Below, piece after piece: positions 12,609 through 64,000 of a DNA stretch of 64,000 nt (its first letter is position 1; each line of letters opens with the position of its first letter). The DNA lies in contig JAMFTG010000501.1 of assembly GCA_023974075.1 (NCBI GenBank), positions 62,001 to 126,000 on the forward strand. The letters are read 5' to 3'. Below the pieces are notes generated by a model, which saw only the letters and a program-made list of their open reading frames with translations, searched no databases and was not told the DNA's origin. This DNA comes from Chaenocephalus aceratus. Its lineage: Eukaryota > Chordata > Actinopteri > Perciformes > Channichthyidae. The position numbers were made by a program, and so were the translations under genes.

Positions 12609-12650
12609 CACAAGCAATTTTCACCCATTTATTAATTATATGTTTTAAAT

Positions 12651-14907: not shown

Positions 14908-14917
14908 TACTGTTTAG

Positions 14918-26160: not shown

Positions 26161-26162
26161 AT

Positions 26163-32714: not shown

Positions 32715-33252
32715 ACCAGTGTAAAGACTTCAGAACAGGAGTGATGTGATCCACTTTCTTAGTGTTAGTGAGGAACCAGTGTAAAGACTTAAGAACTGGA
32801 CTGATCCACTTTCCTAGTGTTAGTGAGGAACCAGTTAAAAGACCTCAGAACTGGACTGATCCACTTTCTTAGTGTTAGTGAGGAACCAGTGTAAAGACCT
32901 CAGAACTGGACTGATCCACTTTCTTAGTGTTAGTGAGGAACCAGTGTAAAGACTTCAGAACAGGAGTGATGTGATCCACTTTCTTAGTGTTAGTGAGGAA
33001 CCAGTGTAAAGACTTAAGAACTGGACTGATCCACTTTCCTAGTGTTAGTGAGGAATCAGTTTAAAGACCTCAGAACTGGACTGATCCACTTTCTTAGTGT
33101 TAGTGAGGAACCAGTGTAAAGACTTCAGAACAGGAGTGATGTGATCCACTTTCTTATTGTTGGTGAGGAACCAGTGTAAAGACTTAAGAACTGGACTGAT
33201 CCACTTTCCTAGTGTTAGTGAAGAACCAGTTTAAAGACCTCAAAACTGGACT
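32715..33252 (-). repeat. L2-derived satellite array 1 (538 bp)
   Basis: Ten monomers in the order L S S S L S S L S plus a 27-bp partial, where L is 60 bp and S is 55 bp. It begins abruptly after GGCTTA and ends at AACTGGACT, where the cassette starts. In this and all arrays the monomer reads, antisense, as a piece of the L2 reverse transcriptase. Confidence 0.95.
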
Positions 33253-34120
33253 TCAGACTTCTACTCCTCTACCTTTTGGAGCAAACATTGTACTTTTCTA
33301 CTCACTACATTTATTTGTCAAATCAATAGAAAACGAAATCAACTTATACATTATGATTTACTATTATACAACTATTACAATGATAAACAGATGAATGGAG
33401 CAATAATTGTAACCATGTGATAAAATATCTATATATTATTCCAAAAAGGGTCACTTCTGAAAAGTATGTACTTTGAGATGCTACTTTATATTTGTACTCC
33501 TTTCAGAGGCGAATATTGTACTTTTTACTCCACGACATTTATTTAATACTCATAGTTACTTTGTTCATATATAAATACTGTACATGATATGCTGATATTG
33601 TATAATGCAGTGCTGTATGAATACACTACACAGTATTTGAAGTATCTACATTTTGTCCACACTGACAAACTGCAAAACTAAAATACTTACATATCTGGGA
33701 TGAAAACAGGGTTATAATAACCTTAATAATAATGCTTTGTAAAGTGCAATTATGTTTAACAAGTACTTTTGATGCTTGAAGTACATTTAACTGATAATAC
33801 ATCTGTACTTTATATTATTCTGAAATGAGTCACCCAGGAATATTTGTGTAATCTGTTTTAAAGACAAAGAAGCTTGTCTTAGTAACTAACTTACATTTTT
33901 GTTTTACTTTGTTTGAGATGAACAGGGACATACACCAGGTTAATGATTAGACACGGTAACATTTCCACACTGAGTAAACCTGAAAGTGAAGGAAAGATTG
34001 CTGCTTTTATCACATTTATAACCGCCCTAAAACTCAAAGTTCTTTAACTCAATATGTTTTATCAAGATGACCTGACAGTTTTACACCAATATAAAACAAT
34101 GTATTTATCTTTGTTGCTAT
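33253..34120. repeat. Cassette insert 1 (868 bp, AT-rich)
   Basis: No ORF of note. It contains two related blocks, one near TTTCTACTCACTACATTTAT and one near TTTTACTCCACGACATTTAT, similar to a common teleost interspersed repeat. Markers: TTTTGGAGC, TATTTGAAG, GCTATGC, ATCGATT. Confidence 0.85.
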
Positions 34121-34652
34121 GCAAGACACGTTTATCGATTCAGCCCATTTCAAGGAAATTCAAAGTGCTTTACAAAAAATACATTGAAAGCATTTAGACA
34201 TAGTGCAACAGAAACAAAACATAGAATGACATTTAAGTTTAAAACGGTCATTAAAAAGCTAAGAGAATACAAATAAAACAATCTAAAATAGGATAAAACA
34301 GGTTTAAAATACATTCATATAAGTTACAGTGCCGTGTAAGATGTGAATGGCTATTTAAAAAAGGTTTATGAAAATAGAATAGTGGCCTAGATTTAAAAGT
34401 AGTAAGAGTTGCAGCGGACCTGCAGGTTTCTGGGAGTTTGTTCCAGATATTTGGAGCATAATAACTGAACGCTGCTTCTCCATGTTTAGTTCTGACTCTG
34501 GGGACAGGAAGCTGACCAGTCCCTGAAGACCTGAGAGATCTGGATGGTTCATCATTTAGCAGGAGGTCAGTAATGTATTTTGGGCCTAAACCATTCAGTG
34601 CTTTATAAACCAGCAGCAGTATTTTGAAATGTATTCTTAGACACACAGGAAG
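34121..34652 (-). mobile_element. L2 LINE fragment 1
   Basis: Minus-strand 3' end of an L2-like LINE. It encodes SLHWLPVCLRIHFKILLLVY... through YYAPNIWNKLPETCRS, then a 3' region with GTAAAGCACTTTGAATTTCC that ends near GCAAG at 34121. The 5' side does not stop: the ORF runs straight into satellite array 2. Marker: His in the Y-F-H-K-P-F block. Confidence 0.9.
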
Positions 34653-35299
34653 CCAGTGTAAAGACTTCAGAACAGGAGTGATGTGATCCACTTTCTTAGT
34701 GTTAGTGAGGAACCAGTGTAAAGACCTCAGAACTGGACTGATCCACTTTCATAGTGTTAGTGAGGAATCAGTGTAAAGACTTAAGAACAGGAGTGATGTG
34801 ATCCACTTTCTTAGTGTTAGTGAGGAACCAGTGTAAAGACCTAAGAACTGGACTGATCCACTTTCCTAGTGTTAGTGAGGAACCAGTTCAAAGACCTCAG
34901 AACTGGACTGATCCACTTTCTTAGTGTTAGTGAGGAACCAGTGTAAAGACCTCAGAACTGGACTGATCCACTTTCTTAGTGTTAGTGAGGAACCAGTGTA
35001 AAGACCTCAGAACTGGACTGATCCACTTTCCTAGTGTTAGTGAGGAACCAGTTTAAAGACCTCAGAACTGGACTGATCCACTTTCTTAGTGTTAGTGAGG
35101 AACCAGTTTAAAGACCTCAGAACTGGACTGATCCACTTTCTTAGTGTTAGTGAGGAACCAGTGTAAAGACTTCAGAACAGGAGTGATGTGATCCACTTTC
35201 TTATTGTTGGTGAGGAACCAGTGTAAAGACTTAAGAACTGGACTGATCCACTTTCCTAGTGTTAGTGAAGAACCAGTTTAAAGACCTCAAAACTGGACT
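34653..35299 (-). repeat. Satellite array 2 (647 bp)
   Basis: Order L S L S S S S S S L S plus 27-bp partial (3 x 60 + 8 x 55 + 27 = 647). The first L monomer is the L2 coding sequence itself. Confidence 0.95.
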
Positions 35300-36167
35300 T
35301 CAGACTTCTACTCCTCTACCTTTTGAAGCAAACATTGTACTTTTCTACTCACTACATTTATTTGTCAAATCAATAGAAAACGAAATCAACTTATACATTA
35401 TGATTTACTATTATACAACTATTACAATGATAAACAGATGAATGGAGCAATAATTGTAACCATGTGATAAAATATCTATATATTATTCCAAAAAGGGTCA
35501 CTTCTGAAAAGTATGTACTTTGAGATGCTACTTTATATTTGTACTCCTTTCAGAGGCGAATATTGTACTTTTTACTCCACGACATTTATTTAATACTCAT
35601 AGTTACTTTGTTCATATATAAATACTGTACATGATATGCTGATATTGTATAATGCAGTGCTGTATGAATACACTACACAGTATTTCAAGTATCTACATTT
35701 TGTCCACACTGACAAACTGCAAAACTAAAATACTTACATATCTGGGATGAAAACAGGGTTATAATAACCTTAATAATAATGCTTTGTAAAGTGCAATTAT
35801 GTTTAACAAGTACTTTTGATGCTTGAAGTACATTTAACTGATAATACATCTGTACTTTATATTATTCTGAAATGAGTCACCCAGGAATATTTGTGTAATC
35901 TGTTTTAAAGACAAAGAAGCTTGTCTTAGTAACTAACTTACATTTTTGTTTTACTTTGTTTGAGATGAACAGGGACATACACCAGGTTAATGATTAGACA
36001 CGGTAACATTTCCACACTGAGTAAACCTGAAAGTGAAGGAAAGATTGCTGCTTTTATCACATTTATAACCGCCCTAAAACTCAAAGTTCTTTAACTCAAT
36101 ATGTTTTATCAAGATGACCTGACAGTTTTACACCAATATAAAACAATGTATTTATCTTTGTTGCTAC
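35300..36167. repeat. Cassette insert 2
   Basis: Markers TTTTGAAGC, TATTTCAAG, GCTACGC, ATCTATT distinguish it from insert 1. Confidence 0.85.
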
Positions 36168-36699
36168 GCAAGACACGTTTATCTATTCAGCCCATTTCAA
36201 GGAAATTCAAAGTGCTTTACAAAAAATACATTGAAAGCATTTAGACATAGTGCAACAGAAACAAAACATAGAATGACATTTAAGTTTAAAACGGTCATTA
36301 AAAAGCTAAGAGAATACAAATAAAACAATCTAAAATAGGATAAAACAGGTTTAAAATACATTCATATAAGTTACAGTGCCGTGTAAGATGTGAATGGCTA
36401 TTTAAAAAAGGTTTCTGAAAATAGAATAGTGGCCTAGATTTAAAAGTAGTAAGAGTTGCAGCGGACCTGCAGGTTTCTGGGAGTTTGTTCCAGATATTTG
36501 GAGCATAATAACTGAACGCTGCTTCTCCATGTTTAGTTCTGACTCTGGGGACAGGAAGCTGACCAGTCCCTGAAGACCTGAGAGATCTGGATGGTTCATC
36601 ATTTAGCAGGAGGTCAGTAATGTATTTTGGGCCTAAACCATTCAGTGCTTTATAAACCAGCAGCAGTATTTTGAAATGTATTCTTAGACACACAGGAAG
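36168..36699 (-). mobile_element. L2 LINE fragment 2
   Basis: Gln-type (Y-F-Q-K-P-F). Otherwise as fragment 1. Confidence 0.9.
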
Positions 36700-37401
36700 C
36701 CAGTGTAAAGACTTCAGAACAGGAGTGATGTGATCCACTTTCTTAGTGTTAGTGAGGAACCAGTGTAAAGACCTCAGAACTGGACTGATCCACTTTCATA
36801 GTGTTAGTGAGGAATCAGTGTAAAGACTTAAGAACAGGAGTGATGTGATCCACTTTCTTAGTGTTAGTGAGGAACCAGTGTAAAGACCTAAGAACTGGAC
36901 TGATCCACTTTCCTAGTGTTAGTGAGGAACCAGTTCAAAGACCTCAGAACTGGACTGATCCACTTTCTTAGTGTTAGTGAGGAACCAGTGTAAAGACCTC
37001 AGAACTGGACTGATCCACTTTCTTAGTGTTAGTGAGGAACCAGTGTAAAGACCTCAGAACTGGACTGATCCACTTTCCTAGTGTTAGTGAGGAACCAGTT
37101 TAAAGACCTCAGAACTGGACTGATCCACTTTCTTAGTGTTAGTGAGGAACCAGTGTAAAGACTTAAGAACTGGACTGATCCACTTTCCTAGTGTTAGTGA
37201 GGAATCAGTTTAAAGACCTCAGAACTGGACTGATCCACTTTCTTAGTGTTAGTGAGGAACCAGTGTAAAGACTTCAGAACAGGAGTGATGTGATCCACTT
37301 TCTTATTGTTGGTGAGGAACCAGTGTAAAGACTTAAGAACTGGACTGATCCACTTTCCTAGTGTTAGTGAAGAACCAGTTTAAAGACCTCAAAACTGGAC
37401 T
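36700..37401 (-). repeat. Satellite array 3 (702 bp)
   Basis: As array 2 but with one additional S monomer (nine S, three L, partial), accounting exactly for the 55-bp difference between units A and B. Confidence 0.95.
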
Positions 37402-38269
37402 TCAGACTTCTACTCCTCTACCTTTTGGAGCAAACATTGTACTTTTCTACTCACTACATTTATTTGTCAAATCAATAGAAAACGAAATCAACTTATACAT
37501 TATGATTTACTATTATACAACTATTACAATGATAAACAGATGAATGGAGCAATAATTGTAACCATGTGATAAAATATCTATATATTATTCCAAAAAGGGT
37601 CACTTCTGAAAAGTATGTACTTTGAGATGCTACTTTATATTTGTACTCCTTTCAGAGGCGAATATTGTACTTTTTACTCCACGACATTTATTTAATACTC
37701 ATAGTTACTTTGTTCATATATAAATACTGTACATGATATGCTGATATTGTATAATGCAGTGCTGTATGAATACACTACACAGTATTTGAAGTATCTACAT
37801 TTTGTCCACACTGACAAACTGCAAAACTAAAATACTTACATATCTGGGATGAAAACAGGGTTATAATAACCTTAATAATAATGCTTTGTAAAGTGCAATT
37901 ATGTTTAACAAGTACTTTTGATGCTTGAAGTACATTTAACTGATAATACATCTGTACTTTATATTATTCTGAAATGAGTCACCCAGGAATATTTGTGTAA
38001 TCTGTTTTAAAGACAAAGAAGCTTGTCTTAGTAACTAACTTACATTTTTGTTTTACTTTGTTTGAGATGAACAGGGACATACACCAGGTTAATGATTAGA
38101 CACGGTAACATTTCCACACTGAGTAAACCTGAAAGTGAAGGAAAGATTGCTGCTTTTATCACATTTATAACCGCCCTAAAACTCAAAGTTCTTTAACTCA
38201 ATATGTTTTATCAAGATGACCTGACAGTTTTACACCAATATAAAACAATGTATTTATCTTTGTTGCTAT
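37402..38269. repeat. Cassette insert 3
   Basis: Markers as insert 1. Confidence 0.85.
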
Positions 38270-38801
38270 GCAAGACACGTTTATCGATTCAGCCCATTTC
38301 AAGGAAATTCAAAGTGCTTTACAAAAAATACATTGAAAGCATTTAGACATAGTGCAACAGAAACAAAACATAGAATGACATTTAAGTTTAAAACGGTCAT
38401 TAAAAAGCTAAGAGAATACAAATAAAACAATCTAAAATAGGATAAAACAGGTTTAAAATACATTCATATAAGTTACAGTGCCGTGTAAGATGTGAATGGC
38501 TATTTAAAAAAGGTTTATGAAAATAGAATAGTGGCCTAGATTTAAAAGTAGTAAGAGTTGCAGCGGACCTGCAGGTTTCTGGGAGTTTGTTCCAGATATT
38601 TGGAGCATAATAACTGAACGCTGCTTCTCCATGTTTAGTTCTGACTCTGGGGACAGGAAGCTGACCAGTCCCTGAAGACCTGAGAGATCTGGATGGTTCA
38701 TCATTTAGCAGGAGGTCAGTAATGTATTTTGGGCCTAAACCATTCAGTGCTTTATAAACCAGCAGCAGTATTTTGAAATGTATTCTTAGACACACAGGAA
38801 G
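38270..38801 (-). mobile_element. L2 LINE fragment 3
   Basis: His-type, as fragment 1. Confidence 0.9.
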
Positions 38802-39448
38802 CCAGTGTAAAGACTTCAGAACAGGAGTGATGTGATCCACTTTCTTAGTGTTAGTGAGGAACCAGTGTAAAGACCTCAGAACTGGACTGATCCACTTTCA
38901 TAGTGTTAGTGAGGAATCAGTGTAAAGACTTAAGAACAGGAGTGATGTGATCCACTTTCTTAGTGTTAGTGAGGAACCAGTGTAAAGACCTAAGAACTGG
39001 ACTGATCCACTTTCCTAGTGTTAGTGAGGAACCAGTTCAAAGACCTCAGAACTGGACTGATCCACTTTCTTAGTGTTAGTGAGGAACCAGTGTAAAGACC
39101 TCAGAACTGGACTGATCCACTTTCTTAGTGTTAGTGAGGAACCAGTGTAAAGACCTCAGAACTGGACTGATCCACTTTCCTAGTGTTAGTGAGGAACCAG
39201 TTTAAAGACCTCAGAACTGGACTGATCCACTTTCTTAGTGTTAGTGAGGAACCAGTTTAAAGACCTCAGAACTGGACTGATCCACTTTCTTAGTGTTAGT
39301 GAGGAACCAGTGTAAAGACTTCAGAACAGGAGTGATGTGATCCACTTTCTTATTGTTGGTGAGGAACCAGTGTAAAGACTTAAGAACTGGACTGATCCAC
39401 TTTCCTAGTGTTAGTGAAGAACCAGTTTAAAGACCTCAAAACTGGACT
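38802..39448 (-). repeat. Satellite array 4 (647 bp)
   Basis: Same monomer order as array 2. Confidence 0.95.
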
Positions 39449-40316
39449 TCAGACTTCTACTCCTCTACCTTTTGAAGCAAACATTGTACTTTTCTACTCA
39501 CTACATTTATTTGTCAAATCAATAGAAAACGAAATCAACTTATACATTATGATTTACTATTATACAACTATTACAATGATAAACAGATGAATGGAGCAAT
39601 AATTGTAACCATGTGATAAAATATCTATATATTATTCCAAAAAGGGTCACTTCTGAAAAGTATGTACTTTGAGATGCTACTTTATATTTGTACTCCTTTC
39701 AGAGGCGAATATTGTACTTTTTACTCCACGACATTTATTTAATACTCATAGTTACTTTGTTCATATATAAATACTGTACATGATATGCTGATATTGTATA
39801 ATGCAGTGCTGTATGAATACACTACACAGTATTTCAAGTATCTACATTTTGTCCACACTGACAAACTGCAAAACTAAAATACTTACATATCTGGGATGAA
39901 AACAGGGTTATAATAACCTTAATAATAATGCTTTGTAAAGTGCAATTATGTTTAACAAGTACTTTTGATGCTTGAAGTACATTTAACTGATAATACATCT
40001 GTACTTTATATTATTCTGAAATGAGTCACCCAGGAATATTTGTGTAATCTGTTTTAAAGACAAAGAAGCTTGTCTTAGTAACTAACTTACATTTTTGTTT
40101 TACTTTGTTTGAGATGAACAGGGACATACACCAGGTTAATGATTAGACACGGTAACATTTCCACACTGAGTAAACCTGAAAGTGAAGGAAAGATTGCTGC
40201 TTTTATCACATTTATAACCGCCCTAAAACTCAAAGTTCTTTAACTCAATATGTTTTATCAAGATGACCTGACAGTTTTACACCAATATAAAACAATGTAT
40301 TTATCTTTGTTGCTAC
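39449..40316. repeat. Cassette insert 4
   Basis: Markers as insert 2. Confidence 0.85.
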
Positions 40317-40848
40317 GCAAGACACGTTTATCTATTCAGCCCATTTCAAGGAAATTCAAAGTGCTTTACAAAAAATACATTGAAAGCATTTAGACATAGT
40401 GCAACAGAAACAAAACATAGAATGACATTTAAGTTTAAAACGGTCATTAAAAAGCTAAGAGAATACAAATAAAACAATCTAAAATAGGATAAAACAGGTT
40501 TAAAATACATTCATATAAGTTACAGTGCCGTGTAAGATGTGAATGGCTATTTAAAAAAGGTTTCTGAAAATAGAATAGTGGCCTAGATTTAAAAGTAGTA
40601 AGAGTTGCAGCGGACCTGCAGGTTTCTGGGAGTTTGTTCCAGATATTTGGAGCATAATAACTGAACGCTGCTTCTCCATGTTTAGTTCTGACTCTGGGGA
40701 CAGGAAGCTGACCAGTCCCTGAAGACCTGAGAGATCTGGATGGTTCATCATTTAGCAGGAGGTCAGTAATGTATTTTGGGCCTAAACCATTCAGTGCTTT
40801 ATAAACCAGCAGCAGTATTTTGAAATGTATTCTTAGACACACAGGAAG
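40317..40848 (-). mobile_element. L2 LINE fragment 4
   Basis: Gln-type, as fragment 2. Confidence 0.9.
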
Positions 40849-41550
40849 CCAGTGTAAAGACTTCAGAACAGGAGTGATGTGATCCACTTTCTTAGTGTTA
40901 GTGAGGAACCAGTGTAAAGACCTCAGAACTGGACTGATCCACTTTCATAGTGTTAGTGAGGAATCAGTGTAAAGACTTAAGAACAGGAGTGATGTGATCC
41001 ACTTTCTTAGTGTTAGTGAGGAACCAGTGTAAAGACCTAAGAACTGGACTGATCCACTTTCCTAGTGTTAGTGAGGAACCAGTTCAAAGACCTCAGAACT
41101 GGACTGATCCACTTTCTTAGTGTTAGTGAGGAACCAGTGTAAAGACCTCAGAACTGGACTGATCCACTTTCTTAGTGTTAGTGAGGAACCAGTGTAAAGA
41201 CCTCAGAACTGGACTGATCCACTTTCCTAGTGTTAGTGAGGAACCAGTTTAAAGACCTCAGAACTGGACTGATCCACTTTCTTAGTGTTAGTGAGGAACC
41301 AGTGTAAAGACTTAAGAACTGGACTGATCCACTTTCCTAGTGTTAGTGAGGAATCAGTTTAAAGACCTCAGAACTGGACTGATCCACTTTCTTAGTGTTA
41401 GTGAGGAACCAGTGTAAAGACTTCAGAACAGGAGTGATGTGATCCACTTTCTTATTGTTGGTGAGGAACCAGTGTAAAGACTTAAGAACTGGACTGATCC
41501 ACTTTCCTAGTGTTAGTGAAGAACCAGTTTAAAGACCTCAAAACTGGACT
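40849..41550 (-). repeat. Satellite array 5 (702 bp)
   Basis: Same monomer order as array 3. Confidence 0.95.
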
Positions 41551-42418
41551 TCAGACTTCTACTCCTCTACCTTTTGGAGCAAACATTGTACTTTTCTACT
41601 CACTACATTTATTTGTCAAATCAATAGAAAACGAAATCAACTTATACATTATGATTTACTATTATACAACTATTACAATGATAAACAGATGAATGGAGCA
41701 ATAATTGTAACCATGTGATAAAATATCTATATATTATTCCAAAAAGGGTCACTTCTGAAAAGTATGTACTTTGAGATGCTACTTTATATTTGTACTCCTT
41801 TCAGAGGCGAATATTGTACTTTTTACTCCACGACATTTATTTAATACTCATAGTTACTTTGTTCATATATAAATACTGTACATGATATGCTGATATTGTA
41901 TAATGCAGTGCTGTATGAATACACTACACAGTATTTGAAGTATCTACATTTTGTCCACACTGACAAACTGCAAAACTAAAATACTTACATATCTGGGATG
42001 AAAACAGGGTTATAATAACCTTAATAATAATGCTTTGTAAAGTGCAATTATGTTTAACAAGTACTTTTGATGCTTGAAGTACATTTAACTGATAATACAT
42101 CTGTACTTTATATTATTCTGAAATGAGTCACCCAGGAATATTTGTGTAATCTGTTTTAAAGACAAAGAAGCTTGTCTTAGTAACTAACTTACATTTTTGT
42201 TTTACTTTGTTTGAGATGAACAGGGACATACACCAGGTTAATGATTAGACACGGTAACATTTCCACACTGAGTAAACCTGAAAGTGAAGGAAAGATTGCT
42301 GCTTTTATCACATTTATAACCGCCCTAAAACTCAAAGTTCTTTAACTCAATATGTTTTATCAAGATGACCTGACAGTTTTACACCAATATAAAACAATGT
42401 ATTTATCTTTGTTGCTAT
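41551..42418. repeat. Cassette insert 5
   Basis: Markers as insert 1. It starts the third dimer, which runs to about 45448 before array 7 departs from the array 3/5 order. Confidence 0.85.
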
Positions 42419-42950
42419 GCAAGACACGTTTATCGATTCAGCCCATTTCAAGGAAATTCAAAGTGCTTTACAAAAAATACATTGAAAGCATTTAGACATA
42501 GTGCAACAGAAACAAAACATAGAATGACATTTAAGTTTAAAACGGTCATTAAAAAGCTAAGAGAATACAAATAAAACAATCTAAAATAGGATAAAACAGG
42601 TTTAAAATACATTCATATAAGTTACAGTGCCGTGTAAGATGTGAATGGCTATTTAAAAAAGGTTTATGAAAATAGAATAGTGGCCTAGATTTAAAAGTAG
42701 TAAGAGTTGCAGCGGACCTGCAGGTTTCTGGGAGTTTGTTCCAGATATTTGGAGCATAATAACTGAACGCTGCTTCTCCATGTTTAGTTCTGACTCTGGG
42801 GACAGGAAGCTGACCAGTCCCTGAAGACCTGAGAGATCTGGATGGTTCATCATTTAGCAGGAGGTCAGTAATGTATTTTGGGCCTAAACCATTCAGTGCT
42901 TTATAAACCAGCAGCAGTATTTTGAAATGTATTCTTAGACACACAGGAAG
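42419..42950 (-). mobile_element. L2 LINE fragment 5
   Basis: His-type, as fragment 1. Confidence 0.9.
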
Positions 42951-43597
42951 CCAGTGTAAAGACTTCAGAACAGGAGTGATGTGATCCACTTTCTTAGTGT
43001 TAGTGAGGAACCAGTGTAAAGACCTCAGAACTGGACTGATCCACTTTCATAGTGTTAGTGAGGAATCAGTGTAAAGACTTAAGAACAGGAGTGATGTGAT
43101 CCACTTTCTTAGTGTTAGTGAGGAACCAGTGTAAAGACCTAAGAACTGGACTGATCCACTTTCCTAGTGTTAGTGAGGAACCAGTTCAAAGACCTCAGAA
43201 CTGGACTGATCCACTTTCTTAGTGTTAGTGAGGAACCAGTGTAAAGACCTCAGAACTGGACTGATCCACTTTCTTAGTGTTAGTGAGGAACCAGTGTAAA
43301 GACCTCAGAACTGGACTGATCCACTTTCCTAGTGTTAGTGAGGAACCAGTTTAAAGACCTCAGAACTGGACTGATCCACTTTCTTAGTGTTAGTGAGGAA
43401 CCAGTTTAAAGACCTCAGAACTGGACTGATCCACTTTCTTAGTGTTAGTGAGGAACCAGTGTAAAGACTTCAGAACAGGAGTGATGTGATCCACTTTCTT
43501 ATTGTTGGTGAGGAACCAGTGTAAAGACTTAAGAACTGGACTGATCCACTTTCCTAGTGTTAGTGAAGAACCAGTTTAAAGACCTCAAAACTGGACT
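42951..43597 (-). repeat. Satellite array 6 (647 bp)
   Basis: Same monomer order as array 2. Confidence 0.95.
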
Positions 43598-44466
43598 TCA
43601 GACTTCTACTCCTCTACCTTTTGAAGCAAACATTGTACTTTTCTACTCACTACATTTATTTGTCAAATCAATAGAAAACGAAATCAACTTATACATTATG
43701 ATTTACTATTATACAACTATTACAATGATAAACAGATGAATGGAGCAATAATTGTAACCATGTGATAAAATATCTATATATTATTCCAAAAAGGGTCACT
43801 TCTGAAAAGTATGTACTTTGAGATGCTACTTTATATTTGTACTCCTTTCAGAGGCGAATATTGTACTTTTTACTCCACGACATTTATTTAATACTCATAG
43901 TTACTTTGTTCATATATAAATACTGTACATGATATGCTGATATTGTATAATGCAGTGCTGTATGAATACACTACACAGTATTTCAAGTATCTACATTTTG
44001 TCCACACTGACAAACTGCAAAACTAAAATACTTACATATCTGGGATGAAAACAGGGTTATAATAACCTTAATAATAATGCTTTGTAAAGTGCAATTATGT
44101 TTAACAAGTACTTTTGATGCTTGAAGTACATTTAACTGATAATACATCTGTACTTTATATTATTCTGAAATGAGTCACCCAGGAATATTTGTGTAATCTG
44201 TTTTAAAGACAAAGAAGCTTGTCTTAGTAACTAACTTACATTTTTGTTTTACTTTGTTTGAGATGAACAGGGACATACACCAGGTTAATGATTAGACACG
44301 GTAACATTTCCACACTGAGTAAACCTGAAAGTGAAGGAAAGATTGCTGCTTTTATCACATTTATAACCGCCCTAAAACTCAAAGTTCTTTAACTCAATAT
44401 GTTTTAATCAAGATGACCTGACAGTTTTACACCAATATAAAACAATGTATTTATCTTTGTTGCTAC
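43598..44466. repeat. Cassette insert 6 (869 bp)
   Basis: Markers as insert 2, with one inserted A (GTTTTAATCAAG at 44401-44412). Confidence 0.85.
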
Positions 44467-44998
44467 GCAAGACACGTTTATCTATTCAGCCCATTTCAAG
44501 GAAATTCAAAGTGCTTTACAAAAAATACATTGAAAGCATTTAGACATAGTGCAACAGAAACAAAACATAGAATGACATTTAAGTTTAAAACGGTCATTAA
44601 AAAGCTAAGAGAATACAAATAAAACAATCTAAAATAGGATAAAACAGGTTTAAAATACATTCATATAAGTTACAGTGCCGTGTAAGATGTGAATGGCTAT
44701 TTAAAAAAGGTTTCTGAAAATAGAATAGTGGCCTAGATTTAAAAGTAGTAAGAGTTGCAGCGGACCTGCAGGTTTCTGGGAGTTTGTTCCAGATATTTGG
44801 AGCATAATAACTGAACGCTGCTTCTCCATGTTTAGTTCTGACTCTGGGGACAGGAAGCTGACCAGTCCCTGAAGACCTGAGAGATCTGGATGGTTCATCA
44901 TTTAGCAGGAGGTCAGTAATGTATTTTGGGCCTAAACCATTCAGTGCTTTATAAACCAGCAGCAGTATTTTGAAATGTATTCTTAGACACACAGGAAG
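44467..44998 (-). mobile_element. L2 LINE fragment 6
   Basis: Gln-type, as fragment 2. Confidence 0.9.
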
Positions 44999-47900: not shown

Positions 47901-49515
47901 ACTTTCTTAGTGTTAGTGAGGAACCAGTGTAAAGACTTCAGAACAGGAGTGATGTGATCCACTTTCTTAGTGTTAGTGAGGAACCAGTGTAAAGACTTAA
48001 GAACTGGACTGATCCACTTTCATAGTGTTAGTGAGGAACCAGTGTAAATACTTAAGAACTGGACAGATCCACTTTCATAGTGTTAGTGAGGAATCCGTTT
48101 AAAGACCTCAGAACTGGACTGATCCACTTTCTTAGTGTTAGTGAGGAACCAGTGTAAAGACTTCAGAACAGGAGTGATGTGATCCACTTTCTTAGTGTTA
48201 GTGAGGAACCAGTGTAAAGACCTCAGAACTGGACTGATCCACTTTCCTAGTGTTAGTGAGGAACCAGTGTAAAGACTTAAGAACTGGACTGATCCACTTT
48301 CCTAGTGTTAGTGAGGAACCAGTTTAAAGACCTCAGCACTGGACTGATCCACTTTCTTAGTGTTAGTGAGGAACCAGTGTAAAGACCTCAGAACTGGACT
48401 GATCCACTTTCTTAGTGTTAGTGAAGAACCAGTGTAAAGACCTCAGAACTGGACTGATCCACGTTCTTAGTGTTAGTGAGGAACCCGTGTAAAGACCTCA
48501 GAACTGGACTGATCCACTTTCTTAGTGTTAGTGAGCAACCAGTGTAAAGACTTCAGAACAGGAGTGATGTGATCCACTTTCTTAGTGTTAGTGAGGAATC
48601 AGTGTAAATACTTAAGAACTGGACTGATCCACTTTCCTAGTGTTAGTGAGGAACCAGTTTAAAGACCTCAGAACTGGGCTGATCCACTTTCTTAGTGTTA
48701 GTGAGGAACCAGTGTAAAGACCTCGGAACTGGACTGATCCACTTTCTTAGTGTTAGTGAGGAACCAGTGTAAAGACTTCAGAACAGGAGTGATGTGATCC
48801 ACTTTCTTAGTGTTAGTGAGGAATCAGTGTAAAGACTTAAGAACTGGACTGATCCACTTTCCTAGTGTTAGTGAGGAACCAGTTTAAAGACCTCAGAACT
48901 GGGCTGATCCACTTTCTTAGTGTTAGTGAGAAACCAGTGTAAAGACCTCGGAACTGGACTGATCCACTTTCTTAGTGTCAGTGAGGAACCAGTGTAAAGA
49001 CTTCAGAACAGGAGTGATGTGATCCACTTTCTTAGTGTTAGTGAGGAATCAGTGTAAAAACTTAAGAACTGGACTGATCCACTTTCCTAGTGTTAGTGAG
49101 GAACCAGTTTAAAGACCTCAGAACTGGACTAATCCACTTTCTTAGTGTTAGTGAGGAATCAGTTTAAAGACCTCAGAAATTGACTGATCCACTTTCTAAG
49201 TGTTGGTGAGGAACCAGTGTAAATACCTCAGAACTGGACTGATCCACTTTCTTAGTGTTAGTGAGGAACCAGTGTAAATACTTCAGAACTGGACTGATAC
49301 ACTTTCATAGTGTTAGTGAGGAATCAGTTTAAAGACCTCAGAAATTGACTGATCCACTTTCTAAGTGTTGGTGAGGAACCTGTGTAAAGACCTCAGAACT
49401 GGACTGATCCACTTTCTTAGTGTTAGTGAGGAACCAGTGTAAAGACTTAAGAACTGGACTGATCCACTTTCCTAGTGTTAGTGAAGAACCAGTTTAAAGA
49501 CCTCAAAACTGGACC
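44999..49515 (-). repeat. Satellite array 7 (about 4.5 kb)
   Basis: The first eight monomers match arrays 3 and 5, then the order departs near 45449. It contains diverged monomers (GTGAAAATAATTAAG, GTAGATACTTAAG, CTAAGTTTTGG) and an internal duplication offset by about 1515 bp (the CCTAAGAACTGG/TTCAAAG pair at 45181 recurs at 46696). Confidence 0.93.
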
Positions 49516-50915: not shown

Positions 50916-53900
50916 CCAGTGTAAAGACTTCAGAACAGGAGTGATGTGATCCACTTTCTTAGTGTTAGTGAGGAACCAGTTCAAAGACCTCAGAACTGGA
51001 CTGATCCACTTTCTTAGTGTTAGTGAGGAACCAGTGTAAAGACCTCAGAACTGGACTGATCCACTTTCCTAGTGTTAGTGAGGAACCAGTTTAAAGACCT
51101 CAGAACTGGACTGATCCACTTTCTTAGTGTTAGTGAGGAACCAGTGTAAAGACTTCAGAACAGGAGTGATGTGATCCACTTTCTTAGTGTTAGTGAGGAA
51201 CCAGTGTAAATACTTAAGAACTGGACTGATCCACTTTCATAGTGTTAGTGAGGAATCAGTTTAAAGACCTCAGAAATGGACTGATCCACTTTCTAAGTGT
51301 TGGTGAGGAACCAGTGAAAATAATTAAGAACTGGACTGATCCACTTTCCTAGTGTTAGTGAGGAAACAGTTTAAAGACTTCAGAACAGGAGTGATGTGAT
51401 CCACTTTCTTAGTGTTAGTGAGGAACCAGTGTAGATACTTAAGAACTGGACTGATCCACTTTCATAGTGTTAGTGAGGAACCAGTTTAAAGACCTCAGAA
51501 CTGGACTGATCCACTTTCTTAGTGTTAGTGAGGAACCAGTGTAAAGACTTCAGAACAGGAGTGATGTGATCCACTTTCTTAGTGTTAGTGAGGAACCAGT
51601 GTAAAGACTTAAGAACTGGACTGATCCACTTTCCTAGTGTTAGTGAGGAACCAGTGTAAAGACCTCAGAACTGGACTGATCCACTTTCCTAGTGTTAGTG
51701 AGGAACCAGTGTAAAGACTTAAGAACTGGACTGATCCACTTTCCTAGTGTTAGTGAGGAACCAGTTTAAAGACCTCAGCACTGGACTGATCCACTTTCTT
51801 AGTGTTAGTGAGGAACCAGTGTAAAGACCTCAGAACTGGACTGATCCACTTTCTTAGTGTTAGTGAAGAACCAGTGTAAAGACCTCAGAACTGGACTGAT
51901 CCACATTCTTAGTGTTAGTGAGGAACCGGTGTAAAGACCTCAGAACTGGACTGATCCACTTTCTTAGTGTTAGTGAGGAACCAGTGTAAAGACCTCAGAA
52001 CTGGACTGATCCACTTTCTTAGTGTTAGTGAGGAACCAGTGTAAAGACTTCAGAACAGGAGTGATGTGATCCACTTTCTTAGTGTTAGTGAGGAATCAGT
52101 GTAAATACTTAAGAACTGGACTGATCCACTTTCCTAGTGTTAGTGAGGAACCAGTTTAAAGACCTCAGAACTGGGCTGATCCACTTTCTTAGTGTTAGTG
52201 AGAAACCAGTGTAAAGACCTCGGAACTGGACTGATCCACTTTCTTAGTGTCAGTGAGGAACCAGTGTAAAGACTTCAGAACAGGAGTGATGTGATCCACT
52301 TTCTTAGTGTTAGTGAGGAATCAGTGTAAAGACTTAAGAACTGGACTGATCCACTTTCCTAGTGTTAGTGAGGAACCAGTTTAAAGACCTCAGAACTGGA
52401 CTAATCCACTTTCTTAGTGTTAGTGAGGAATCAGTTTAAAGACCTCAGAAATGGACTGATCCACTTTCTAAGTGTTGGTGAGGAACCTGTGTAAAGACCT
52501 CAGAACTGGACTGATCCACTTTCTTAGTGTTAGTGAGGAACCAGTGTAAAGACTTCAGAACTGGAATGATCCACTTTCTTAGTGTTAGTGAGGAACCAGT
52601 GTAAAGACTTTAGAACAGGAGTGATGTGATCCACTTTCCTAGTGTTAGTGAGGAACCAGTATAAAGACCTCAGAACTGGACTGATCCACTTTCCTAGTGT
52701 TAGTGAGGAACCAGTGTAAAGACCTCAGAACTGGAATGATCCACTTTCTTAGTGTTAGTGAGAAACCAGTGTAAAGACTTCAGAACAGGAGTGATGTGAT
52801 CCACTTTCCTAGTGTTAGTGAGGAACCAGTGTAAAGACTTCAGAACTGGACTGACCCACTTTCATAGTGTTAGTGAGGAATCAGTGTAAAGACTTCAGAA
52901 CAGGACTGATCCACTTTCTTAGTGTTAGTGAGGAACCAGTGTAACGACTTAAGAACTGGACTGATCCACTTTCCTAGTGTTAGTGAGGAACCAGTTTAAA
53001 GACCTCAGAACTGGACTGATCCACTTTCTTAGTGTTAGTGAGGAACCAGTTTAAAGACTTCAGAACTGGACTGATCCACTTTCCTAGTGTTAGTGAGGAA
53101 CCAGTGTAAAGACTTCAGAACAGGAGTGATGTGATCCACTTTCTTAGTGTTAGTGAGGAACCAGTGTAAAGACTTAAGAACTGGACTGATCCACTTTCCT
53201 AGTGTTAGTGAGGAACCAGTTTAAAGACCTCAGAACTGGGCTGATCCACTTTCTTAGTGTTAGTGAGGAACCAGTGTAAAGACCTCGGAACTGGACTGAT
53301 CCACTTTCTTAGTGTTAGTGAGGAACCAGTGTAAAGACTTCAGAACAGGAGTGATGTGATCCACTTTCTTAGTGTTAGTGAGGAATCAGTGTAAAGACTT
53401 AAGAACTGGACTGATCCACTTTCCTAGTGTTAGTGAGGAACCAGTTTAAAGACCTCAGAACTGGGCTGATCCACTTTCTTAGTGTTAGTGAGAAACCAGT
53501 GTAAAGACCTCGGAACTGGACTGATCCACTTTCTTAGTGTCAGTGAGGAACCAGTGTAAAGACTTCAGAACAGGAGTGATGTGATCCACTTTCTTAGTGT
53601 TAGTGAGGAATCAGTGTAAAGACTTAAGAACTGGACTGATCCACTTTCCTAGTGTTAGTGAGGAACCAGTTTAAAGACCTCAGAACTGGACTAATCCACT
53701 TTCTTAGTGTTAGTGAGGAATCAGTTTAAAGACCTCAGAAATTGACTGATCCACTTTCTAAGTGTTGGTGAGGAATCAGTGTAAATACCTCAGAACTGGA
53801 CTGATCCACTTTCTTAGTGTTAGTGAGGAACCAGTGTAAATACTTCAGAACTGGACTGATACACTTTCATAGTGTTAGTGAGGAATCAGTTTAAAGACCT

Positions 53901-54077
53901 CAGAAATGGACTGATCCACTTTCTAAGTGTTGGTGAGGAACCTGTGTAAAGACCTCAGAACTGGACTGATCCACTTTCTTAGTGTTAGTGAGGAACCAGT
54001 GTAAAGACTTAAGAACTGGACTGATCCACTTTCCTAGTGTTAGTGAAGAACCAGTTTAAAGACCTCAAAACTGGACT
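50916..54077 (-). repeat. Satellite array 8 (about 3.2 kb)
   Basis: Begins L then S with TTCAAAG. It shares the diverged monomer series of array 7 (GAAAATAATTAAG at about 51317) and GGGCTGATCC monomers with arrays 7 and 9. Confidence 0.93.
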
Positions 54078-55477: not shown

Positions 55478-58400
55478 CCAGTGTAAAGACTTCAGAACAG
55501 GAGTGATGTGATCCACTTTCTTAGTGTTAGTGAGGAACCAGTTCAAAGACCTCAGCACTGGACTGATCCACTTTCTTAGTGTTAGTGAGGAACCAGTGTA
55601 AAGACCTCAGAACTGGACTGATCCACTTTCCTAGTGTTAGTGAGGAACCAGTTTAAAGACCTCAGAACTGGACTGATCCACTTTCTTAGTGTTAGTGAGG
55701 AACCAGTGTAAAGACTTCAGAATAGGAGTGATGTGATCCACTTTCTTAGTGTTAGTGAGGAACCAGTGTAAATACTTAAGAACTGGACTGATCCACTTTC
55801 ATAGTGTTAGTGAGGAATCAGTTTAAAGACCTCAGAAATGGACTGCTCCACTTTCTAAGTGTTGGTGAGGAACCAGTGAAAATAATTAAGAACTGGACTG
55901 ATCCACTTTCCTAGTGTTAGTGAGGAAACAGTTTAAAGACTTCAGAATAGGAGTGATGTGATCCACTTTCTTAGTGTTAGTGAGGAACCAGTGTAGATAC
56001 TTAAGAACTGGACTGATCCACTTTCATAGTGTTAGTGAGGAATCAGTTTAAAGACCTCAGAAATGGACTGATCCACTTTCTAAGTTTTGGTGAGGAACCA
56101 GTGTAAATACCTCAGAACTGGACTGATCCACTTTCTTAGTGTTAGTGAGGAACCAGTGTAAAGACTTCAGAACAGGAGTGATGTGATCCACTTTCTTCGT
56201 GTTAGTGAGGAACCAGTGTAAAGACCTCAGAACTGGACTGATCCACTTTCATAGTGTTAGTGAGGAATCAGTGTAAAGACTTCAGAACAGGAGTGATGTG
56301 ATCCACTTTCTTAGTGTTAGTGAGGAATCAGTGTAACGACTTAAGAACTGGACTGATCCACTTTCCTAGTGTTAGTGAGGAACCAGTGTAAAGACTTAAG
56401 AACTGGACTGATCCACTTTCCTAGTGTTAGTGAGGAACCAGTTTAAAGACCTCAGAACTGGACTGATCCACTTTCTTAGTGTTAGTGAGGAACCAGTGTA
56501 AAGACTTCAGAACAGGAGTGACGTGATCCACTTTCTTAGTGTTGGTGAGGAACCAGTGTAAAGACCTCAGAACTGGACTGATCCACTTTCCTAGTGTTAG
56601 TGAGGAACCAGTGTAAAGACTTAAGAACTGGACTGATCCACTTTCCTAGTGTTAGTGAGGAACCAGTTTAAAGACCTCAGCACTGGACTGATCCACTTTC
56701 TAAGTGTTGGTGAGGAACCTGTGTAAAGACCTCAGAACTGGACTGATCCACTTTCTTAGTGTTAGTGAGGAACCAGTGTAAAGACTTCAGAACAGGAGTG
56801 ATGTGATCCACTTTCCTAGTGTTAGTGAGGAACCAGTGTAAAGACCTCAGAACTGGACTGATCCACTTTCCTAGTGTTAGTGAGGAACCAGTGTAAAGAC
56901 CTCAGAACTGGACTGATCCACTTTCCTAGTGTTAGTGAGGAACCAGTGTAAAGACCTCAGAACTGGAATGATCCACTTTCTTAGTGTTAGTGAGAAACCA
57001 GTGTAAAGACTTCAGAACAGGAGTGATGTGATCCACTTTCCTAGTGTTAGTGAGGAACCAGTGTAAAGACTTCAGAACTGGACTGACCCACTTTCATAGT
57101 GTTAGTGAGGAATCAGTGTAAAGACTTCAGAACAGGACTGATCCATTTCTTAGTGTTAGTGAGGAACCAGTGTAACGACTTAAGAACTGGACTGATCCAC
57201 TTTCCTAGTGTTAGTGAGGAACCAGTTTAAAGACCTCAGAACTGGACTGATCCACTTTCTTAGTGTTAGTGAGGAACCAGTTTAAAGACTTCAGAACTGG
57301 ACTGATCCACTTTCCTAGTGTTAGTGAGGAACCAGTGTAAAGACTTCAGAACAGGAGTGATGTGATCCACTTTCTTAGTGTTAGTGAGGAACCAGTGTAA
57401 AGACTTAAGAACTGGACTGATCCACTTTCCTAGTGTTAGTGAGGAACCAGTTTAAAGACCTCAGAACTGGACTGATCCACTTTCTTAGTGTTAGTGAGGA
57501 ACCAGTGTAAAGACTTCAGAACAGGAGTGATGTGATCCACTTTCTTAGTGTTAGTGAGGAACCAGTGTAAATACTTAAGAACTGCACTGATCCACTTTCA
57601 TAGTGTTAGTGAGGAATCCGTTTAAAGACCTCAGAAATGGACTGATCCACTTTCTAAGTGTTGGTGAGGAACCTGTGTAAAGACCTCAGAACTGGACTGA
57701 TCCACTTTCTTAGTGTTAGTGAGGAACCAGTGTAAAGACTTCAGAACTGGACTGATCCACTTTCTTAGTGTTAGTGAGGAACCAGTGTAAAGACCTCAGA
57801 ACTGGACTGATCCACTTTCTTAGTGTTAGTGAGGAACCAGTGTAAAGACTTAGTGGAACCAGTGTAAAGACCTCAGAACTGGACTGATCCACTTTCCTAG
57901 TGTTAGTGAGGAACCAGTGTAAAGACCTCAGAACTGGACTGATCCACTTTCCTAGTGTTAGTGAGGAACCAGTTTAAAGACCTCAGCACTGGACTGATCC
58001 ACTTTCTTAGTGTTAGTGAGGAACCAGTGTAAAGACCTCAGAACTGGACTGATCCACTTTCTTAGTGTTAGTGAAGAACCAGTGTAAAGACCTCAGAACT
58101 GGACTGATCCACGTTCTTAGTGTTAGTGAGGAACCAGTGTAAAGACCTCAGAACTGGACTGATCCACTTTCTTAGTGTTAGTGAGGAACCAGTGTAAAGA
58201 CCTCAGAACTGGACTGATCCACTTTCTTAGTGTTAGTGAGGAACCAGTGTAAAGACTTCAGAACAGGAGTGATGTGATCCACTTTCTTAGTGTTAGTGAG
58301 GAATCAGTGTAAATACTTAAGAACTGGACTGATCCACTTTCCTAGTGTTAGTGAGGAACCAGTTTAAAGACCTCAGAACTGGGCTGATCCACTTTCTTAG

Positions 58401-61400
58401 TGTTAGTGAGAAACCAGTGTAAAGACCTCGGAACTGGACTGATCCACTTTCTTAGTGTCAGTGAGGAACCAGTGTAAAGACTTCAGAACAGGAGTGATGT
58501 GATCTACTTTCTTAGTGTTAGTGAGAAATCAGTGTAAAGACTTAAGAACTGGACTGATCAACTTTCCTAGTGTTAGTGAGGAACCAGTTTAAAGACCTCA
58601 GAACTGGACTAATCCACTTTCTTAGTGTTAGTGAGGAATCAGTTTAAAGACCTCAGAAATGGACTGATCCACTTTCTAAGTGTTGGTGAGGAACCTGTGT
58701 AAAGACCTCAGAACTGGACTGATCCACTTTCTTAGTGTTAGTGAGGAACCAGTGTAAAGACTTCAGAACTGGAATGATCCACTTTCTTAGTGTTAGTGAG
58801 GAACCAGTGTAAAGACTTCAGAACAGGAGTGATGTGATCCACTTTCCTAGTGTTAGTGAGGAACCAGTGTAAAGACCTCAGAACTGGACTGATCCACTTT
58901 CCTAGTGTTAGTGAGGAACCAGTGTAAAGACCTCAGAACTGGACTGATCCACTTTCTTAGTGTTAGTGAGAAACCAGTGTAAAGACTTCAGAACAGGAGT
59001 GATGTGATCCACTTTCCTAGTGTTAGTGAGGAACCAGTGTAAAGACTTCAGAACTGGACTGACCCACTTTCATAGTGTTAGTGAGGAATCAGTGTAAAGA
59101 CTTCAGAACAGGACTGATCCACTTTCTTAGTGTTAGTGAGGAACCAGTGTAACGACTTAAGAACTGGACTGATCCACTTTCCTAGTGTTAGTGAGGAACC
59201 AGTTTAAAGACCTCAGAACTGGACTGATCCACTTTCTTAGTGTTAGTGAGGAACCAGTTTAAAGACTTCAGAACTGGACTGATCCACTTTCCTAGTGTTA
59301 GTGAGGAACCAGTGTAAAGACTTCAGAACAGGAGTGATGTGATCCACTTTCTTAGTGTTAGTGAGGAACCAGTGTAAAGACTTAAGAACTGGACTGATCC
59401 ACTTTCCTAGTGTTAGTGAGGAACCAGTTTAAAGACCTCAGAACTGGACTGATCCACTTTCTTAGTGTTAGTGAGGAACCAGTGTAAAGACTTCAGAACA
59501 GGAGTGATGTGATCCACTTTCTTAGTGTTAGTGAGGAACCAGTGTAAATACTTAAGAACTGCACTGATCCACTTTCATAGTGTTAGTGAGGAATCCGTTT
59601 AAAGACCTCAGAAATGGACTGATCCACTTTCTAAGTGTTGGTGAGGAACCTGTGTAAAGACCTCAGAACTGGACTGATCCACTTTCTTAGTGTTAGTGAG
59701 GAACCAGTGTAAAGACTTCAGAACTGGACTGATCCACTTTCTTAGTGTTAGTGAGGAACCAGTGTAAAGACCTCAGAACTGGACTGATCCACTTTCTTAG
59801 TGTTAGTGAGGAACCAGTGTAAAGACTTCAGAACAGGAGTGATGTGATCCACTTTCCTATTGTTAGTGAGGAACCAGTGTAAAGACCTCAGAACTGGACT
59901 GATCCACTTTCCTAGTGTTAGTGAGGAACCAGTGTAAAGACCTCAGAACTGGACTGATCCACTTTCTTAGTGTTAGTGAGAAACCAGTGTAAAGACTTCA
60001 GAACAGGAGTGATGTGATCCACTTTCCTAGTGTTAGTGAGGAACCAGTGTAAAGACTTCAGAACTGGACTGATCCACTTTCCTAGTGTTAGTGAGGAACC
60101 AGTTTAAAGACTTCAGAACTGGACTGATCCACTTTCCTAGTGTTAGTGAGGAACCAGTGTAAAGACTTCAGAACAGGAGTGATGTGATCCACTTTCTTAG
60201 TGTTAGTGAGGAACCAGTGTAAAGACTTAAGAACTGGACTGATCCACTTTCCTAGTGTTAGTGAGGAACCAGTTTAAAGACCTCAGAACTGGACTGATCC
60301 ACTTTCTTAGTGTTAGTGAGGAACCAGTGTAAAGACTTCAGAACAGGAGTGATGTGATCCACTTTCTTAGTGTTAGTGAGGAACCAGTGTAAATACTTAA
60401 GAACTGCACTGATCCACTTTCATAGTGTTAGTGAGGAATCCGTTTAAAGACCTCAGAAATGGACTGATCCACTTTCTAAGTGTTGGTGAGGAACCTGTGT
60501 AAAGACCTCAGAACTGGACTGATCCACTTTCTTAGTGTTAGTGAGGAACCAGTGTAAAGACTTCAGAACTGGACTGATCCACTTTCTTAGTGTTAGTGAG
60601 GAACCAGTGTAAAGACCTCAGAACTGGACTGATCCACTTTCTTAGTGTTAGTGAGGAACCAGTGTAAAGACTTCAGAACAGGAGTGATGTGATCCACTTT
60701 CCTATTGTTAGTGAGGAACCAGTGTAAAGACCTCAGAACTGGACTGATCCACTTTCTTAGTGTTAGTGAGAAACCAGTGTAAAGACTTCAGAACAGGAGT
60801 GATGTGATCCACTTTCCTAGTGTTAGTGAGGAACCAGTGTAAAGACTTCAGAACTGGACTGATCCACTTTCCTAGTGTTAGTGAGGAACCAGTTTAAAGA
60901 CCTCAGAACTGGACTGATCCACTTTCTTAGTGTTAGTGAGGAACCAGTTTAAAGACTTCAGAACTGGACCGATTCACTTTCCTAGTGTTAGTGAGGAACC
61001 AGTTTAAATACCTCAGAACTGGACTGATCCACTTTCTTAGTGTTAGTGAGGAACCAGTGTAAAGACTTCAGAACAGGAGTGATGTGATCCACTTTCTTAG
61101 TGTTAGTGAGGAACCAGTGTAAATACTTAAGAACTGCACTGATCCACTTTCATAGTGTTAGTGAGGAATCCGTTTAAAGACCTCAGAAATGGACTGATCC
61201 ACTTTCTAAGTGTTGGTGAGGAACCTGTGTAAAGACCTCAGAACTGGACTGATCCACTTTCTTAGTGTTAGTGAGGAACCAGTGTAAAGACTTCAGAACT
61301 GGACTGATCCACTTTCTTAGTGTTAGTGAGGAACCAGTGTAAAGACTTCAGAACAGGAGTGATGTGATCCACTTTCCTAGTGTTAGTGAGGAACCAGTGT

Positions 61401-64000
61401 AAAGACCTCAGAACTGGACTGATCCACTTTCCTAGTGTTAGTGAGGAACCAGTGTAAAGACCGCAGAACTGGACTGATCCACTTTCTTAGTGTTAGTGAG
61501 AAACCAGTGTAAAGACTTCAGAACAGGAGTGATGTGATCCACTTTCTTAGTGTTAGTGAGGAACCAGTGTAAAGACTTAAGAACAGGAGTGATGTGATCC
61601 ACTTTCCTAGTGTTAGTGAGGAACCAGTGTAAAGACTTCAGAACTGGACTGACCCACTTTCATAGTGTTAGTGAGGAATCAGTGTAAAGACTTCAGAACA
61701 GGAATGATCCACTTTCTTAGTGTTAGTGAGGAACCAGTTTAAAGACTTCAGAACTGGACTGATCCACTTTCCTAGTGTTAGTGAGGAACCAGTGTAAAGA
61801 CTTCAGAACAGGAGTGATGTGATCCACTTTCTTAGTGTTAGTGAGGAACCAGTGTAAAGACTTCAGAACAGGAGTGATGTGATCCACTTTCTTAGTGTTA
61901 GTGAGGAACCAGTGTAAAGACTTAAGAACTGGACTGATCCACTTTCCTAGTGTTAGTGAGGAACCAGTTTAAAGACCTCAGAACTGGACTGATCCACTTT
62001 CTTAGTGTTGGTGAGGAACCAGTGTAAAGACTTCAGAACAGGAGTGATGTGATCCACTTTCTTAGTGTTAGTGAGGAACCAGTGTAAATACTTAAGAACT
62101 GCACTGATCCACTTTCATAGTGTTAGTGAGGAATCCGTTTAAAGACCTCAGAAATGGACTGATCCACTTTCTAAGTGTTGGTGAGGAACCAGTGTAAAGA
62201 CCTCAGAACTGGACTCATCCACTTTCTTAGTGTTAGTGAGGAACCAGTGTAAAGACTTCAGAACAGGAGTGATGTGATCCACTTTCTTAGTGTTAGTGAG
62301 GAACCAGTGTACATACTTAAGAACTGGACAGATCCACTTTCATAGTGTTAGTGAGGAATCCGTTTAAAGACCTCAGAACTGGACTGATCCACTTTCTTAG
62401 TCTTAGTGAGGAACCAGTGTAAAGACTTCAGAACAGGAGTGATGTGATCCACTTTCTTAGTGTTAGTGAGGAACCAGTGTAAAGACTTCAGAACAGGAGT
62501 GATGTGATCCACTTTCTTAGTTTTAGTGAGGAACCAGTGTAAAGACTTAAGAACTGGACTGATCCACTTTCCTAGTGTTAGTGAGGAACCCGTTTAAAGA
62601 CCTCAGCACTGGACTGATCCACTTTCTTAGTGTTAGTGAGGAATCAGTGTAAAGACCTCAGAACTGGACTGATCCACTTTCTTAGTGTTAGTGAGGAACC
62701 AGTGTAAAGACCTCAGAACTGGACTGATCCACTTTCTTAGTGTTAGTGAGGAACCAGTGTAAAGACTTCAGAACAGGAGTGATGTGATCCACTTTCTTAG
62801 TGTTAGTGAGGAACCAGTGTAAATACTTAAGAACTGCACTGATCCACTTTCATAGTGTTAGTGAGGAATCCGTTTAAAGACCTCAGAAATGGACTGATCC
62901 ACTTTCTAAGTGTTGGTGAGGAACCAGTGTAAAGACCTCAGAACTGGACTGATCCACTTTCTTAGTGTTAGTGAGGAACCAGTGTAAAGACTTCAGAACA
63001 GGAGTGATGTGATCCACTTTCTTAGTGTTAGTGAGGAACCAGTGTACATACTTAAGAACTGGACAGATCCACTTTCATAGTGTTAGTGAGGAATCAGTGT
63101 AAAGACTTCAGAACAGGAGTGATGTGATCCACTTTCTTAGTGTTAGTGAGGAACCAGTGTAAAGACTTCAGAACAGGAGTGATGTGATCCACTTTCTTAG
63201 TGTTAGTGAGGAACCAGTGTAAATACTTAAGAACTGCACTGATCCACTTTCATAGTGTTAGTGAGGAATCCGTTTAAAGACCTCAGAAATGGACTGATCC
63301 ACTTTCTAAGTGTTGGTGAGGAACCTGTGTAAAGACCTCAGAACTGGACTGATCCACTTTCTTAGTGTTAGTGAGGAACCAGTGTAAAGACTTCAGAACT
63401 GGACTGATCCACTTTCTTAGTGTTAGTGAGGAACCAGTGTAAAGACTTCAGAACAGGAGTGATGTGATCCACTTTCCTAGTGTTAGTGAGGAACCAGTGT
63501 AAAGACCTCAGAACTGGACTGATCCACTTTCCTAGTGTTAGTGAGGAACCAGTGTAAAGACCGCAGAACTGGACTGATCCACTTTCTTAGTGTTAGTGAG
63601 AAACCAGTGTAAAGACTTCAGAACAGGAGTGATGTGATCCACTTTCTTAGTGTTAGTGAGGAACCAGTGTAAAGACTTAAGAACAGGAGTGATGTGATCC
63701 ACTTTCCTAGTGTTAGTGAGGAACCAGTGTAAAGACTTCAGAACTGGACTGACCCACTTTCATAGTGTTAGTGAGGAATCAGTGTAAAGACTTCAGAACA
63801 GGAATGATCCACTTTCTTAGTGTTAGTGAGGAACCAGTTTAAAGACTTCAGAACTGGACTGATCCACTTTCCTAGTGTTAGTGAGGAACCAGTGTAAAGA
63901 CTTCAGAACAGGAGTGATGTGATCCACTTTCTTAGTGTTAGTGAGGAACCAGTGTAAAGACTTCAGAACAGGAGTGATGTGATCCACTTTCTTAGTGTTA
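55478..64000 (-). repeat. Satellite array 9 (more than 8.5 kb, runs off the window)
   Basis: Uninterrupted 55/60-bp monomers to the window edge, with no further cassette. Multi-monomer blocks recur, for example a long block at about 61300-61970 repeated at about 63400-64000 and the GAACTGCACTGATCC monomer series repeated at 57585, 59570, 60412, 61135, 62100, 62835 and 63235. One truncated monomer is at about 57850. Confidence 0.95.

Follow-up and report, generated by a model that had tools for sequence, protein, structure and literature searches.

Introduction

Satellites born from transposons are already well known. Tandem units also occur in mouse L1, whose 5' monomers are the subject of PMC6454616. 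These monomers are promoter units of mobile elements. They resemble the units described here in that they are arranged in tandem, vary in number and occupy the 5' end of copies of a LINE, whereas our units derive from an open reading frame (ORF), not from a 5' UTR, and have no known promoter role. Satellites derived from transposable elements (TEs) are named in general terms in passages of PMC5615363. The passages of a 2025 review which bear on the subject state that tandemisation can affect nearly every part of every type of TE, name only untranslated regions for LINEs and discuss microhomology-based models (PMC12628747). The present locus is like the satellites treated there in that a TE segment was tandemised, and differs from the LINE cases in that the segment is part of an ORF. 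The first-pass annotation of this locus regarded a satellite made from a coding segment as a rarity, which is perhaps overstated if any TE part can be tandemised, although the LINE list in those passages of the review is indeed confined to untranslated regions.

Retrotransposon-derived satellites with adjoining parent sequence are described for Ogre elements of Lathyrus sativus, where, as here, arrays arose from repeats inside the retrotransposon and the parent lies next to or between the arrays (passages on Ogre in Vondrak et al., PMC7004042). Ogre is, however, a plant LTR element in which the source repeats follow the coding region, whereas here the source is a LINE ORF segment. Passages on satellite sources in PMC13170303 and PMC11136912 do not mention LINE coding segments, and a literature search, with subscription papers mostly outside its scope, found no earlier description of a satellite derived from an L2 ORF. 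What is notable here is therefore not the birth of a satellite from a transposon as such, but a LINE coding segment as its source, a succession of steps that can be followed, and the fact that another lineage has repeats at this position too.

Results and Discussion

Tandem arrays in the right half of the window

We analysed a stretch of 64,000 nucleotides from Chaenocephalus aceratus (the window). Its right half, from 32715 to the right end, holds nine tandem arrays (Table 1), the last of which continues past the end of the window. Tandem Repeats Finder reported periods of 55, 170 and 225 for the arrays between 32715 and 63978. When units were counted by an 11-base anchor at positions after 32000, with at most two substitutions allowed, 352 anchors were found and the summed arrays came to 19,836 bases, or about 19.8 kb of the stretch 32715-64000, in accordance with the earlier estimate of about 20 kb and 350 monomers. 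The description of the unit as a 60-bp monomer has to be changed: among the 343 anchor intervals shorter than 130 bp, 262 measured 55 bp and 79 measured 60 bp, with one each of 109 and 77, so the main unit is 55 bp long. Spacing is thus head-to-tail at 55 or 60 bp in 341 of the 343 intervals, as in tandem arrays of TE-derived satellite DNA.

Table 1. Coordinates of the L2 source, the arrays and the repeated cassettes in the window.
Feature	Coordinates	Strand	Basis or remark
Single-copy L2-type LINE fragment (RT and C-terminal ORF part, 3' tail ending in CTTGC repeats)	14917..16180	+	ORF, RVT_1, sequence
Segment homologous to monomer	15640..15699	+	alignment to arrays
Array 1	32715..33252	+	9 anchors; no L2 on left side
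Non-L2 segment X, first cassette, about 868 bp	33253..34120		recurs in all 8 cassettes
Antisense L2 3' part, first cassette, own first monomer unit included	34121..34711	-	alignment to the 14917-16180 L2
Recent higher-order repeat, period 4149 bp (2047 + 2102) with two cassettes in each	32965..44411		self-offset comparison
Array 2	34684..35299	+	11 anchors; adjoins L2
Array 3	36731..37401	+	12 anchors; adjoins L2
Array 4	38833..39448	+	11 anchors; adjoins L2
Array 5	40880..41550	+	12 anchors; adjoins L2
Array 6	42982..43597	+	11 anchors; adjoins L2
Array 7	45030..49514	+	80 anchors; adjoins L2
Array 8	50947..54077	+	56 anchors; adjoins L2
Array 9	55509..64000	+	150 anchors; adjoins L2; exits window

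The units are arranged in groups. The strongest autocorrelation over the whole region was at 55, 225 and 170, the last two being the lengths of one 60-bp unit with three or with two units of 55 bp, and longer periods, for example 1960 and 3875, appeared inside single arrays. After position 44950, with the L2 junction zones excluded, the longest open frame has 85 codons, so the arrays there encode no long repeat protein, and an Rfam scan of the window at gathering scores gave no match. Array length and higher-order structure of such a kind are seen in centromeric and heterochromatic satellites, and the locus would fit a functional satellite of that sort kept by selection; we nevertheless consider this very unlikely. 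The simplest reading is that the amplification was neutral or selfish, and we propose no host function.

Several other features of the window lie outside the satellite. A separate tandem repeat of 91/185 bp occupies 32024-32500, immediately to its left. On the minus strand, an open frame of 803 codons (6924-9332) has SNTX thioredoxin-like, stonustoxin helical and fn3 domains and belongs to the stonustoxin-like family, whose genes are common in fish. Probable pieces of another LINE lie at 25358-28219, also on the minus strand, with an endonuclease-like frame below the Pfam cut-off and a frame with an ALKBH8_N match, such matches being frequent in fish LINE ORFs. A pair of direct repeats (12111-12611 and 14380-14910, 93% identity over 531 columns) adjoins the L2 fragment described below.

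The source is a coding segment of an L2-type LINE

The left half of the window holds a LINE fragment, which we take to belong to the L2 clade, with an open frame of 369 codons (14892-15998). The 60-bp unit of the arrays is the antisense of ORF bases 15640-15699, which encode the peptide LTNTKKVDHITPVLKSLHW, and the frame contains this segment once. The reverse transcriptase match in the ORF (RVT_1, Pfam, E 1.4e-16) spans residues 30-171, while the coordinates place the monomer peptide at about residues 250-270. The source segment thus lies in the same ORF about 80 residues C-terminal to the Pfam domain, and what had been described as a piece of the reverse transcriptase is a piece of the C-terminal ORF part.

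Homology between unit and TE goes beyond chance. The best match of the arrays to the 60-mer of L2 was 59/60, compared with 32/60 after a single shuffling of the array half, so that the similarity is not of the chance level which the first-pass annotation had named as the outcome that would speak against it. The best match on the same strand in the first 32 kb was 31/60; the opposite strand there has a single strong match, the L2 copy itself, followed by one of 29/60. Among the matches listed (80 of 298), the units at 47530 and 63095 are 98.3% identical (57/58) to 15640-15697, which reproduces the 57 of 58 positions claimed earlier for 15641-15698, and the other units range from 84% to 98%.

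The closest homologue of the L2 ORF, among 120 listed of 6840, is 84% identical over 95% of the query, and most of the named homologues among the same 120 come from fish, such as Pundamilia, Oryzias, Xiphophorus and Danio; two, assigned to Vibrio parahaemolyticus and Alcanivorax profundi, are probably contaminants. A motif like SLHWLPV, which belongs to the source segment, was present in 238 of 241 fetched homologues, a set retrieved as homologues of this very region. Since the motif is so general in this set and the segment is single-copy in the L2 at 14917-16180, the direction was from L2 to satellite and not the reverse: the TE is source, not recipient, and this copy represents the unexpanded parental state. 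A satellite that existed first and was then captured by or copied into L2 is extremely unlikely, because the segment belongs to the L2 ORF and stands once in an open frame, and nothing was found in favour of such an order. The satellite is descended from coding sequence inside an L2-type LINE, and a piece of the parent L2 is still attached to it.

Two forms of the unit

The 60-bp units carry GTGATGTGAT, as L2 does, while the 55-bp units have lost 5 bp at that place and show two neighbouring substitutions. Over 46 shared positions the mean difference from L2 is 1.7% for the 60-bp form and 5.6% for the 55-bp form, and the closest units of both forms have no differences from L2 at these positions. 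We take the 60-bp form as ancestral because it is closer to L2 and has the five extra bases of L2. The unit adjoining L2 is of this form at all eight junctions. There are 91 distinct units, counting two of odd length. Mean pairwise difference (up to 5000 random pairs for each form) was 7.2% among the 55-bp units and 2.5% among the 60-bp units.

Repeated cassettes

Eight of the nine arrays, all except the leftmost, adjoin one and the same L2 3' part in antisense orientation, in agreement with the earlier proposal of an antisense L2 coding origin with the parent attached. The junctions lie at 34641, 36688, 38790, 40837, 42939, 44987, 50904 and 55466. Each of these arrays is preceded by a cassette unit of 1415-1416 bp, composed of segment X and the L2 part. 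In the first cassette the L2 part is 91% identical to the L2 at 14917-16180 over 412 columns, and the tail matches at 78% over 65 columns. Segment X presumably resembles a dispersed fish repeat. Direct repeats in X and the L2 part together (33253-34720) form three imperfect pairs, of which two lie inside X, and inverted pairs are absent. Exact junction patterns gave no match in viral or in prokaryote contig collections, which say little for fish DNA.

The seven units of 1415 bases differ from each other by 0-8 bases in all 21 pairs (the eighth, one base longer at 1416, was left out of this count). As the cassettes are nearly identical, the eight L2-array junctions are one event copied and not eightfold evidence. 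The first-pass annotation had stated that the L2 ORF passes without a break into the first monomer in all eight cassettes. This holds as far as the frame is concerned, for it is open from L2 into the second unit at 8/8 junctions (six ORFs of 165 codons and two of 176), but the cassettes count as a single observation. The junctions had also been taken to show that the array grew in place, which, not being independent, they do not prove by themselves. Units are more divergent than cassettes, which indicates that much of the unit diversity is probably older than the cassette duplication.

Cassette edges fall at the same base in all eight copies, with few base changes nearby, while the L2-joined arrays vary in length from 11 to 150 anchors; constant edges and variable arrays are as expected from exchange inside the arrays. 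The first seven units are common to arrays 2-7, and arrays 8 and 9 start with other variants. At an offset of 4149, at least 796 of every 800 bases are equal along the run 32965-40262, and no base differs between the 2100-bp stretches that begin at 34001, 38150 and 42299. Such identity, together with the four of 21 unit pairs that have no differences over 1415 bases, could mean that cassette copies, especially the three identical 4149-bp periods, are in part an assembly artefact of a shorter locus. We find this rather unlikely, given that the remaining 17 pairs differ by 3-8 bases and that arrays 7, 8 and 9 are unlike in length and unit order, and in any case an artefact of this kind would leave the L2 origin of the units unaffected.

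Probable origin and growth of the satellite

From the divergences of units and cassettes we infer an order of events which we regard as probable: a short duplication in one L2 copy, a 5-bp deletion, growth by unequal exchange and a recent amplification of a cassette of about 2.05 kb through the arrays. In the first step the 60-bp ORF stretch that encodes the source peptide would have been duplicated head to tail in one 5'-truncated L2 copy in reverse orientation. The probable cause would be slippage during replication, or a switch of template, from one short direct repeat to another, such as TCCT at 15640 and 15701. In the second, a slippage-type deletion would have removed 5 bp from GTGATGTGAT of the 60-bp unit, leaving one GTGAT, and with two substitutions given the 55-bp form. 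Unequal exchange would then have multiplied the units in groups of 170 and 225 bp. Most recently, misaligned exchange through the arrays would have multiplied the cassette (X, L2 3' part and array) to eight copies.

As for the site of the duplication, the intact L2 has three TCCT (15640, 15674 and 15701) within 65 bp. The distance from 15640 to 15701 is 61 bp, so that a duplication from TCCT to TCCT would measure 61 bp and a unit of 60 requires the loss of one base. A match of at least 4 bp is to be expected by chance at 3.5% of breakpoints in this L2 when the spacing is 61. TCCT microhomology may mark the duplication site, for which this is modest evidence. A single-strand fold at the source site was not unusual (z -0.13, 81 of 200 shuffles as good), and within the window neither an empty site nor an L2 copy with two units was seen. 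Nor did a tandem 20-residue unit occur among the homologues of the cassette ORF that were listed (120 of 2225), and array-only translation against the protein database gave four candidates and three hits, all single-copy L2.

Another course of events would be that the array was born in a mobile L2 source, with the units inside its RNA, and was retrotransposed here and then enlarged. The layout is comparable to that of mouse L1, as the array stands at the 5' end of a truncated copy in L2 orientation, where such monomers would sit, and internally repeated L2 copies do exist, since predicted proteins of another lineage (see below) have 2, 3 and 7 copies of a 9-residue repeat. On the other hand, none of the 241 fetched L2 relatives has a tandem 20-residue unit, the second copy of a wider region in P0156 lies 182 residues away, and 55 bp is not divisible by three, so that such units would shift the frame. 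We therefore hold an origin in a mobile source to be improbable and prefer duplication in the resident L2 copy with subsequent growth in place.

Repeats at the same site in another L2 lineage

The 241 L2 relatives were screened for a 6-residue word repeated within 60 residues, and six passed (P0053, P0091, P0173, P0079, P0099 and P0168). P0079, P0099 and P0168 owe their repeat to low-complexity stretches in other parts of the protein (the tail in P0079) and were rejected as parallels. At SLHWLPV, precisely where the monomer has its source, a 9-residue unit stands in tandem in P0053 (3 copies), P0091 (2) and P0173 (7). The three look like members of one L2 lineage and hence one further case rather than three. 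The unexpanded signature of this lineage is present in 59 fetched proteins, including records from Leuciscus waleckii and Danio rerio. These repeats share with the satellite the same spot of the L2 ORF, but they differ from its 55- and 60-bp units in unit length, in being in frame, in numbering 2-7 copies and in belonging to another L2 lineage.

Nine residues, known from protein sequences, would correspond to 27 bp, which is the distance between the TCCT at 15674 and 15701 in the L2 of the window; four matching bases are to be expected by chance at 4.3% of breakpoints with this spacing. It is conceivable, though we put it forward as doubtful, that tandem repeats have arisen again and again in the C-terminal L2 segment around SLHWLPV, so that LINE copies across teleosts would repeatedly seed satellites there, and that the two lineages duplicated between different pairs of TCCT, 61 bp apart here and 27 bp apart in the other.

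Many satellites bear no trace of where they came from. The present 64-kb stretch contains the parent in single copy, the ancestral unit, its shorter derivative, units in groups and the recently amplified cassette, which allows the probable succession of steps from transposon to satellite to be followed. Should this L2 site be repeated in other fish as well, the birth of a satellite would become testable by comparison.
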